DNA from: Patescibacteria group bacterium
Lineage (GTDB): Bacteria > Patescibacteriota > Minisyncoccia > Minisyncoccales > GWA2-38-27
Direction: 5' to 3'
Assembly (NCBI GenBank): GCA_018830125.1
Contig: JAHJSY010000001.1
Location: 1 to 37,148 of the forward strand
DNA length: 37,148 nt
Shown: positions 4,769-6,868 of the stretch, piece by piece
Numbering within the stretch: position 1 is the first letter of the stretch
Layout of the letters: each line of letters opens with the position of its first letter
Translations under genes and position numbers: made by a program
Notes under the pieces: model-generated
Seen by the model: the letters and a program-made list of their open reading frames with translations, nothing else
What the model was told of the DNA's origin: nothing
The model's database searches: none

Positions 4769-5113
4769 ATGTCAACGAAGGTCATAAAGAAAGAAAAAGA
4801 ACCAGAGCTTAAGCAAAGATTAAGAATAAAGCTTAGGGCTTATGATTATAAGGTTATTGACAATAGTGCTAAGCAAATTGTTGATACGGTTTTGAGGCAT
4901 GGTGTTGAGGTTTTAGGGCCGGTGCCTTTACCTACGGAAATAAAAAAGTACACCGTCAATCGTTCATCTTTTGTTCATAAAGACGCTAGGGAACAATTTG
5001 AGATAAGAATTCACAAAAGATTGATTGATATCTTGAATCCTAACTCGAATGTTATAGACGCTTTAATGAATTTAACCCTTCCAGCGGGTGTTGACATTGA
5101 AATCAAGATGTAG
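4769..5113 (+). CDS. rpsJ: 30S ribosomal protein S10
   Basis: S10 is a head protein of the small subunit and in bacteria is also NusE, a partner in antitermination. It is 114 residues, a little over the usual 102-105 because of a lysine-rich N-terminal tail. Conserved parts are [28 protein letters not shown] and the C-terminal [11 protein letters not shown]. It opens the S10 operon. A hairpin at 5207-5224 separates it from rplC. Confidence 0.96.
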
Positions 5114-5203
5114 TAGTATACGGGAATATATTATAATAATATATTTGCACTATATCTGTCCTTATTTATTAGGGGCGTATGATATGCAAATGCTTTAGTT
5201 TCT

Positions 5204-5232
5204 TTGACTGGGTGTTTGCCCAGTTTTATTTT
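5204..5232 (+). promoter_or_regulatory. Hairpin overlapping a possible promoter, before rplC
   Basis: ACTGGG (5207-5212) pairs with CCCAGT (5219-5224) and is followed by TTTATTTT, which fits a terminator. The same bases also read as TTGACT (5204-5209), 17 bases, TATTTT (5227-5232), which fits a promoter starting just before the rplC ATG at 5244. Sequence alone does not decide between attenuator and promoter. The rest of the 130-base spacer is AT-rich with a short palindrome near 5124-5145. Confidence 0.45.
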
Positions 5233-5243
5233 AGAAAACAGAT

Positions 5244-5825
5244 ATGAGATTTATTTTAGGTAAAAAAATAGAGATGTCACAGATTTTTGATGAAAATGGC
5301 AAGATTATCCCAGTAACTTTAGTTGAGGCTGGACCTTGTTTTGTTACTGAAATAAAAGACTTAGCTGTTCAGATTGGCTTTGAGAAATTAAGAGATAAGA
5401 AAGTGAAGATGCCACAGAAAGATAGACCATATAGATATTTGAAAGAACAAGCAACTAAAAATGCTGAAGCATTTAAGCTTGGTTCTAAGATTAGCGTTTC
5501 TGTCTTCAAAGAAGGAGATAAGGTGGTTGTATCAGGAATTACCAAAGGAAAAGGATTCCAGGGTGGAGTAAAAAAACATGGATTTCATGGAAGAAATGCC
5601 TCTCATGGTACCAAGCATGAAGAAAGAACAATTGGTTCAATTGGATCAAGGTTCCCTCAAAGAGTTATTAAGGGAAGAAAGATGCCAGGAAGAATGGGAG
5701 CTGATAGAGTTTCTGTTAAAGGATTAAAAATAATAAAAATTGATTTAAAGAATAATATCTTGGCAGTTAAGGGAGCGATTCCAGGTCATCGTGGAACATT
5801 GTTAGAAATACGTACATTAAAATAA
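5244..5825 (+). CDS. rplC: 50S ribosomal protein L3
   Basis: L3 is an early assembly protein whose loop reaches toward the peptidyl transferase centre. The 193 residues include the family core GKGFQGGVKKHGFHG, SHGTKHEERTIGSIG and GRKMPGRMGADRVSV. The N terminus MRFILGKKIEMSQIF matches the usual L3 start. It is followed not by rplD but by a 413-base interruption holding a convergent minus-strand gene. Confidence 0.96.
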   Translation: MRFILGKKIEMSQIFDENGKIIPVTLVEAGPCFVTEIKDLAVQIGFEKLRDKKVKMPQKDRPYRYLKEQATKNAEAFKLGSKISVSVFKEGDKVVVSGITKGKGFQGGVKKHGFHGRNASHGTKHEERTIGSIGSRFPQRVIKGRKMPGRMGADRVSVKGLKIIKIDLKNNILAVKGAIPGHRGTLLEIRTLK

Positions 5826-5833
5826 AAGAAAAA

Positions 5834-5851
5834 GGCGTCTTATTTGACGCC
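5834..5851 (-). terminator. Terminator of the antisense zinc-ribbon gene
   Basis: On the minus strand GGCGTC, loop AAATAA, GACGCC is followed by TTTTTCTTTT, a textbook intrinsic terminator. It lies 21 bases past the stop codon of the 58-residue gene. It begins 8 bases after the rplC stop, so the same stem could weakly affect the plus strand. Confidence 0.8.
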
Positions 5852-5871
5852 CTTCATTCCTTCGTAAAGAA

Positions 5872-6048
5872 CTATTCAGATTTTGTTTTTTCTACTGGAA
5901 ATGCCCAAGTAAAATGAGGGCCATGAGTAGAACACTTATGTTTTGAGATTGCTATCTCTTTCGCCTCATTGTAACAACTCGTTTCCGAAACCTCTATTAT
6001 GGTTCCACAGTGTTCGCAAACAAGATTCCAATCAGTCACTTCTTCCAT
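5872..6048 (-). CDS. Small zinc-ribbon-like protein inserted antisense in the S10 operon
   Basis: The 58-residue reading frame starts MEEVTDWNLVCEHCGTII. It has C11 and C14 in a CxxC knuckle, then C25, C39 and H37/H42/H45, which could supply the second half of a zinc site. There is no signal peptide or membrane segment. The start is supported by GGGGAA upstream on the minus strand (spacing about 7). A consensus promoter lies at 6105-6133 and an intrinsic terminator at 5834-5851, so this is a self-contained cassette between rplC and rplD, facing against the operon. The base composition looks slightly richer in GC than that of the ribosomal genes. I do not recognise the family; a zinc-binding regulator or accessory protein is possible but unproven. 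Confidence 0.72.
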   Translation of the reverse strand: MEEVTDWNLVCEHCGTIIEVSETSCYNEAKEIAISKHKCSTHGPHFTWAFPVEKTKSE

Positions 6049-6104
6049 AAAATTTCCCCGTTAAAAAACAACAATCCGTTAAACTTACACAACCTAGAAC
6101 TTCC

Positions 6105-6133
6105 ATTATAAACCAACCAAAGACCAATGTCAA
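6105..6133 (-). promoter_or_regulatory. Promoter of the antisense zinc-ribbon gene (TTGACA-17-TATAAT)
   Basis: Perfect -35 (6133-6128) and -10 (6110-6105) boxes stand on the minus strand, 17 bases apart, giving a start near 6098 and a leader of about 50 bases. It is among the best promoters in the window, so the antisense gene is probably expressed. Confidence 0.8.
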
Positions 6134-6164
6134 ATTAAGAAGTTTAGCCCCCGAAATTAAACGA

Positions 6165-6187
6165 TGTTAGACACCTGGTGTCTAACA
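6165..6187. repeat. Perfect palindrome upstream of rplD
   Basis: TGTTAGACACC and GGTGTCTAACA (11 bases each) flank a single T. A second short hairpin, GGAGC/GCTCC, follows at 6198-6210. The core resembles TGTTCGACACC in the dispersed repeat family at 15655, 21187 and 31891. No clear rplD promoter is visible in 6134-6238. Confidence 0.65.
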
Positions 6188-6238
6188 CTTAGTTTCAGGA
6201 GCCAAGCTCCTTAAGAGCTTAAAAGGATTAAAACAAAT

Positions 6239-6868
6239 ATGAAAGTTAAGGTATATAATCAAAATAAGGAAGAATTGAAAGAGATTGAATTGCCGAAAGA
6301 GATATTTGAAGTAGAAGTTAATTCCGATTTGATTCATCAGGTGGTTTTGGGTCAGCAATCAAACAGAAGACAAGGAACAGCTCAAGCCAAGATGAGAGGC
6401 GAAGTTAGTGGTGGTGGGAAAAAACCTTGGCGTCAGAAAGGAACAGGAAGAGCTAGGCACGGTTCTACTCGTTCTCCTTTATGGAAGGGCGGTGGAATCA
6501 CTTTTGGTCCTAGATCAGATAGAAATTATAAAAAAACTATTCCTACTAAAATGAGAAGAAAAGCTTTAATTATGGTTTTGTCAGCTAAAGCCAAAGAGAG
6601 TATGGTCATAGTTGTTGACAAGCTTGATTTTAATAAACCAGAAACGAAACAAATGAAAAAGGTTTTAAACACATTGTTTTTGAAAGATGGTTCAGGGATA
6701 TTGGTCTTATCTAAAATGGATAAGAATTTAATATTATCAATCAGAAATATTCCTAAAACCATGTCAATTCAAGCAAAAGATTTGAATGTTTTAGATCTAT
6801 TGAATTATAAGTATGTTGTAGTGTCAGAAGCGGGAATTAAAAAGATTAAAGATGTATTTGCGAAATAA
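6239..6868 (+). CDS. rplD: 50S ribosomal protein L4
   Basis: L4 lines the peptide exit tunnel and, in many bacteria, controls the S10 operon. The 209 residues show the extended-loop signature NRRQGTAQAKMRGEVSGGG, KPWRQKGTGRARHGS and LWKGGGITFGPR. The usual L4-rplC adjacency is broken here by the antisense gene, so rplD must be read by transcripts crossing that cassette or from a promoter I could not place. The next start (rplW) is 1 base past the stop. Confidence 0.95.
   Translation: MKVKVYNQNKEELKEIELPKEIFEVEVNSDLIHQVVLGQQSNRRQGTAQAKMRGEVSGGGKKPWRQKGTGRARHGSTRSPLWKGGGITFGPRSDRNYKKTIPTKMRRKALIMVLSAKAKESMVIVVDKLDFNKPETKQMKKVLNTLFLKDGSGILVLSKMDKNLILSIRNIPKTMSIQAKDLNVLDLLNYKYVVVSEAGIKKIKDVFAK

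Follow-up and report, generated by a model that had tools for sequence, protein, structure and literature searches.

A complete antisense gene unit separates rplC from rplD

The window analysed here, a stretch of 37,148 bases that constitutes contig C8 of the 617,556-base genome of a Patescibacteria group bacterium of the order Minisyncoccales, carries rpsL, rpsG, fusA, tuf, rpsJ, rplC, rplD, rplW and rplB in this order and continues onward through the S10 and spc genes, nearly all of them on the + strand. The size and gene content of the genome likewise point to the ultra-small CPR/Patescibacteria. Within the S10 operon, 413 bases lie between the end of rplC at position 5825 and the start of rplD at position 6239, and the sole open reading frame (ORF) between the two genes is an antisense ORF of 58 codons, which is accompanied by its own promoter, Shine-Dalgarno (SD)-like motif and intrinsic terminator. 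The original prediction that a complete antisense unit splits rplC from rplD is accurate in both coordinates and description. We describe this unit together with those found at the same junction, in the same orientation, in other genomes of the order. The features of the locus are:

5244..5825, + strand: rplC (L3), the upstream neighbour, by tblastn to relatives
5855-5830, - strand: intrinsic terminator of the antisense unit, a 10-pair stem followed by TCTTTTATTT, adjoining the rplC stop
5872..6048, - strand: antisense ORF of 58 amino acids, MEEVTDWNLVCEHCGTIIEVSETSCYNEAKEIAISKHKCSTHGPHFTWAFPVEKTKSE, with an ATG start and a predicted beta-beta-alpha-beta fold with a CxxCG knuckle
6059-6056, - strand: SD-like GGGG, weak, 7 nucleotides (nt) before the ATG, read from the sequence
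6133-6105, - strand: antisense promoter TTGACA-17-TATAAT, matching the consensus at 12/12 positions
6239..6868, + strand: rplD (L4), the downstream neighbour

Perfect promoter matches with a spacer of 16-18 nt occur only 14 times in the 617,556 bases of the genome, and the same pattern read backwards, used as a control, does not occur at all. The terminator carries a T-tract in the antisense direction only, with its stem folding at the 3' end of the antisense RNA, and a terminator of this class is present in 2.4% of shuffled gaps. On the sense strand of the window gap, neither a strong promoter nor a terminator was seen. The GC skew is negative only near the antisense ORF, which is what a gene on the opposite strand should produce. 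Taken as a whole, the unit is unlikely to have arisen by chance, as judged from its sequence signals. A second perfect consensus promoter of the window, at 225-252 on the - strand, points leftward and lies upstream of rpsL.

Antisense units recur at the rplC-rplD junction

S10 regions were taken from 120 genomes of the same order and 40 genomes outside it, and then from 40 more within the order. Among the 157 genomes of the order in which the rplC-rplD gap could be measured, its median length is 6 nt, with 35 gaps exceeding 80 nt, 25 exceeding 200 nt and 18 exceeding 300 nt, whereas none of the 40 genomes outside the order has a gap longer than 107 nt (0/40 above 200 nt; Fisher p 0.002 versus the order). 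The original prediction that an insertion at this place is rare thus applies to bacteria at large, but not to the order itself. Across the first 119 genomes, each of the S10 junctions from rplW on has at most one gap above 300 nt; the rpsJ-rplC gap is often long, and the rplD-rplW gaps partly reflect variable N-termini of rplW.

A strict scan, which required a promoter score of at least 11 followed by an ATG with an SD, an ORF of at least 25 amino acids and a terminator, recovered a complete antisense unit in 9 of the 35 rplC-rplD gaps of at least 80 nt (the window, L047, L083, L086, L099, L110, L117, L142 and L223). The same scan found no sense-strand units, none in shuffles (0/350) and none at 13 other junctions (0/331 gaps of at least 80 nt). 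By eye, approximately ten further units are near-complete and fail one criterion (L043, L048, L050, L053, L062, L069, L112, L121, L221 and L224); among these, L050 has a perfect promoter, an SD and a terminator, yet no closed ORF in 104 nt. The asymmetry between the strands is also seen in the 21 gaps of 150-700 nt, where an antisense promoter scoring at least 12 is present in 48%, compared with 1% of shuffles and 0% on the sense strand, and where antisense terminators are found in 8/21 gaps and sense terminators in 0/21. The layout is similar from case to case, with the terminator usually adjoining the rplC stop and the antisense promoter lying beside rplD. One clear sense-strand insertion was observed, in the 1430-nt gap of L102, where the ORFs resemble, by eye, HicA/HicB and MNT/HEPN toxin-antitoxin genes.

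Unrelated cargo at a shared site

The genes carried by these units, here referred to as cassettes, encode proteins of different kinds. No similarity was detectable among the 16 cassette proteins compared, and a strongly hydrophobic stretch is present in 10 of the 16 and absent from the window protein. The L221 cassette encodes a zinc-ribbon protein above the Pfam cut-off and that of L224 a DUF4177-like protein below it, while others have strong SDs, transmembrane segments or recognisable domains; those of L110 and L117 encode ORFans in 246 genomes each, bar weak partial matches. On a tree of ten S10 proteins, the 12 carriers require 12 changes and the cassettes are scattered at the tips, with same-genus sisters that lack the unit (L065 for L142, L054 for L086, and L058 and L141 for L121). 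The original prediction had proposed a search for the same gene at this place in sister genomes; it was not found, and relatives instead carry unrelated ORFs in the same antisense orientation at the junction.

Within genus g62, four genomes (L048, L221, L223 and L224) share a promoter core (TTGACAAAT...) and have similar terminators but four different ORFs, and at least five sister species have an rplC-rplD gap of ~10-16 nt. Here the frame looks inherited and the ORF swapped, and thus not every case represents an independent insertion. The common site and orientation, together with the g62 promoter cores that persist while ORFs are swapped, would also be compatible with site-specific mobile cassettes exchanged at the junction by a recombinase. 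However, no recombinase gene was found, the edges of the gaps, viewed by eye, have no consistent target duplication or attachment repeat, and these edges differ between families, which makes such an exchange very unlikely.

The window unit encodes a predicted 58-residue ORFan

Modelling of the 58-residue protein by AlphaFold2 from its single sequence yields a compact beta-beta-alpha-beta fold with a mean pLDDT of 78.5. In addition to the CxxCG knuckle, which is the only CxxC knuckle present, the protein contains C25, H37, C39, H42 and H45, and it is probably a metal-binding protein. It was originally described as a zinc ribbon, and the CxxCG motif is indeed present, but the protein reaches no zinc-ribbon cut-off in Pfam, where Desulfoferrod_N and Zn_ribbon_DUF2089 appear below cut-off only.

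The homologue search that had been suggested for the 58 residues yielded none, neither in the same genome and 60 relatives (one chance match, E 0.34) nor in 384 genomes of the class. Genome contigs searched with the protein gave as sole match a 13-residue CEHCG stretch in an actinobacterial Fur, and viral contigs, phages and plasmids gave no homologue. A fold search of the model against the PDB found nothing (best E 1.3), Rfam returned eukaryotic or sub-threshold chance matches only, and PADLOC returned none.

Two marginal resemblances were noted. The first is to the C-terminal half of Fur (PF01475; 16.5 bits versus a cut-off of 23.1, E 0.0096; Fur structure 2xig in the PDB, E 0.13), with which ~30 residues align and in which a helix and a strand likewise come after a beta hairpin that bears CxxCG; in contrast to Fur, the 58-residue protein has no N-terminal winged-helix DNA-binding domain, its model being beta-beta-alpha-beta only, and it remains below the Pfam cut-off. 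Derivation from a local Fur gene was considered and dropped, since the genome itself has no Fur match (some family members do have Fur) and the Cys spacing differs. The second is to PHROG 7014 (E 0.0088, residues 8-51) and the C-terminus of Arthrobacter phage JaNo gp62 (E 0.8), which share CxxCG near the start and C-x-T-x-GP-x-F-x-WA-x-P at the end, although the phage protein is longer and of no known function, and the E-values are marginal. On these searches, the 58-residue protein is an ORFan, placed in no family.

An ATG ORF of at least this length arises in 5.5% of shuffled gaps, and the codon score of -0.11 per codon lies between those of real genes (+0.17) and spurious ORFs (-0.32 +/- 0.25). 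The third-position composition is like that of real genes. An untranslated ORF, in a unit that yields an antisense RNA regulating S10, or an ORF that is there by chance, would be in keeping with the lack of homologues, the weak SD, the length attained in shuffles and the L050 unit that has no closed ORF. The third-position composition, the compact model and the strong SDs, transmembrane segments or recognisable domains of other cassettes argue against this explanation, which we regard as quite unlikely. The original prediction had allowed that an ORF with neither homologue nor transcription could be a chance reading frame; no homologue was found, but other genomes that show this layout with unrelated ORFs speak against a chance frame. 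We consider the ORF likely to be coding with moderate confidence, although one sequence is not proof.

Promoters at the rplD start and probable transcription across the junction

In four genomes (L142, L062, L053 and L050), the antisense -35 box TTGACA resides inside codons 2-4 of rplD (ATG-NNT-GTC-AAG), and in L086 and L121 it touches the rplD ATG. TGTCAA, corresponding to the antisense -35, occurs at positions -12..+14 of rplD in 7/29 long-gap but 0/90 short-gap genomes (Fisher p 2.8e-5). Because the box is found in the rplD codons or beside the start only in long-gap genomes, this distribution suggests that the antisense promoter is kept by selection.

The same observations bear on the main alternative, namely that the junction is a neutral cargo slot that tolerates insertions, in which only antisense genes with one-way terminators survive, sparing S10 transcription, and which has no regulatory link to the operon. 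The cassette products are unrelated and differ between sister species, the terminators are one-way, and the same junction also takes ORF-less foldbacks (L060, L104, L112, L113 and L134) and sense toxin-antitoxin-like genes (L102), all of which a neutral slot would accommodate. It would account less readily for the 331 gaps of at least 80 nt at other junctions without an antisense unit, and for the restriction of the -35 box to long-gap genomes, which points to selection on the antisense promoter. We consider a neutral slot possible, if on the unlikely side.

On the sense strand, a strong promoter (score of at least 12) is present in 0/21 gaps of 150-700 nt, and mean sense promoter scores upstream of rplD equal those of shuffles; a general sense promoter before rplD was not found in these gaps. 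As there is neither a strong sense promoter nor a clear sense terminator in the 21 gaps, transcription of S10 probably continues past rplC into rplD, and opposing transcription at this place, as originally predicted, is likely on the basis of these signals. The reading we favour, at a probability of roughly 0.55, is that the rplC-rplD junction is a recurrent slot for antisense genes in this one order, nested within a read-through S10 operon, with a reciprocal effect between operon and nested gene.

Several observations weigh against this reading. A sense 9/12 promoter match, CTTACA-17-TATAAA, read from the sequence at 6084-6112, overlaps the antisense -10 in the window, and the rplD ATG of L043, L069, L099, L117 and L050 is preceded at 0-16 nt by a sense TATAAT, such that some species may transcribe rplD weakly from a promoter of its own. 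The gaps at other junctions are mostly shorter, the fair comparison, restricted to gaps above 200 nt, being ~9/25 versus 0/~60; moreover, the strict criterion was set after the data had been seen, and related species are not independent. Finally, the window ORF itself combines a weak SD, an indecisive codon score and the lack of a homologue.

The sense-strand elements, as well as the many inserted genomes without an SD before rplD, which would fit a short-leader mRNA, could instead be taken to indicate a split S10 operon that ends after rplC, with rplD transcribed from its own promoter and the antisense gene placed between, sharing a divergent promoter region with rplD. This arrangement appears unlikely, given that strong sense promoters and sense terminators after rplC are each found in 0/21 gaps, and that sense promoter scores do not rise above shuffles.

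With respect to the start of rplD, nearly all gap-bearing genomes (for example L086, L121, L117 and L053) have no SD before the gene, because in short-gap genomes the SD is part of the region around the rplC stop (AGAGGATAA), and this suggests that L4 has a leaderless or coupling-free start in gap-bearing genomes. In L099 and L238, the sequence ATGCTTGTYRATACTTA, which resembles the rplD start, occurs twice upstream of rplD and flanks a palindromic element (CCCCGATAGTA...TACGGGGCA), an arrangement that looks like the outcome of an insertion of the element at the start of rplD with a second start remaining. Long gaps also separate rpsJ from rplC in the order (median 137 nt), with sense promoters in 18% (1% of shuffles) and sense terminators in 16% (2% of shuffles), the corresponding window sites being 5091-5119 and 5206-5225 (+). 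This gap is a candidate S10 leader or attenuator located before rplC, not before rpsJ.

Foldbacks and palindromes in the gap

Between the antisense promoter and rplD, the window gap contains two further features:

6135..6214, + strand: imperfect foldback of ~80 nt, which would form a long hairpin in the sense mRNA
6165..6187, no strand assigned: perfect palindrome TGTTAGACACC-T-GGTGTCTAACA, a dispersed repeat of the window genome

The fold of 6112-6260 has an energy of -33.7 kcal/mol (z -4.2), and the strong hairpin at 6135-6214 could shield a processed rplD mRNA at its 5' end. The palindrome has the form (A)TGTTAGACACC-W-GGTGTCTAACA(T); five exact copies of its 19-nt core occur in the genome alongside near copies, whereas 59 relatives have none. 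Copies elsewhere in the window genome (G000) are located at C27:11528, C35:423, C36:62923, C43:11604 and C11:6786 (L003-L007); some are followed by T-runs, like intrinsic terminators near gene ends, and others stand in clusters of related palindromes. A distinct foldback element of ~130 nt, with ends like AAGTAATTTTTAGGAG / CTCCTAAAAATTACTT, is present in S10 gaps of several families, at rplC-rplD in L060, L104, L112, L113 and L134 and at rplW-rplB in L087, and looks like a short non-autonomous repeat.

Comparison with known systems

The E. coli S10 operon is autoregulated by L4 and has rplC and rplD adjacent in one mRNA. The order rpsJ-rplC-rplD-rplW-rplB is common to both organisms, whereas here an antisense gene parts rplD (L4) from rplC. 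A closer parallel is provided by the noncontiguous operon menE-menC-MW1733-ytkD-MW1731 of Staphylococcus aureus, in which transcripts of opposite direction exert mutual control through collision and RNase III (PMC7154746). As in that system, genes of a single operon flank an opposite-strand gene, here with its own predicted promoter (the ORF at 5872-6048 (-); the order has nine strict cases), and the operon mRNA would be antisense to the whole of the opposite mRNA. The differences are that the operon encodes ribosomal proteins, that the opposite gene varies by species at the same junction, and that co-transcription and reciprocal regulation are predictions here. In excludons, known from Listeria (PMC7154746), overlapping opposite transcripts could likewise exclude each other, but here the whole antisense unit is nested in the operon, and no long 5' or 3' untranslated region of a neighbour is known. 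By its sequence features, the S10 arrangement is noncontiguous-operon-like; this variant of a known architecture recurs at a single junction within one order, and its ORFan genes are exchangeable. The literature covered, with most subscription journals outside its scope, yielded no matching description of ribosomal-protein operons that contain an antisense gene, or of insertions into S10 within this group of bacteria.

Proposed mechanism and meaning

The position, orientation, promoter, terminator and recurrence of the units, together with their unrelated products, are apparent in the sequences compared. We propose that the gap is occupied by a minimal unit, comprising a promoter beside or inside the rplD start, an SD, a small ORF and, at the rplC stop, a one-way terminator, and that the ORF in this slot may be exchanged for an unrelated one. 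Read-through of S10 is possible because the unit is antisense and its terminator one-way; the S10 mRNA would thereby continue from rplC into rplD and the operon would become noncontiguous. The S10 mRNA would be antisense to the mRNA of the small gene over its full length, and polymerases would meet head-on. In growing cells, by analogy, strong S10 transcription would silence the small gene, which would be made once ribosomal-protein transcription falls; in the other direction, L4 and the genes that follow it could drop relative to L3 under strong antisense transcription. Read-through, interference, growth-dependent expression and reciprocal control are thus what we infer from the arrangement. 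A more tentative and rather doubtful extension is that the slot is a dedicated one, in which any small gene is turned on by a fall in ribosomal-protein transcription; lineages would then fit different small proteins into it as growth-arrest effectors, and selection would keep the antisense -35 box within the rplD coding sequence.

Few gene strings in bacteria are as conserved as the S10 operon, and in this order unrelated small genes recur in reverse orientation at one of its junctions and, it appears, at none of the others. This recurrence suggests a testable rule of operon architecture. The cassettes also make up a set of naturally occurring ORFan genes, young and equipped with known promoters, which should be useful for understanding how new genes gain expression. 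If S10 transcription does silence the nested gene, the arrangement would constitute a simple sensor of ribosome production that arises from position alone.
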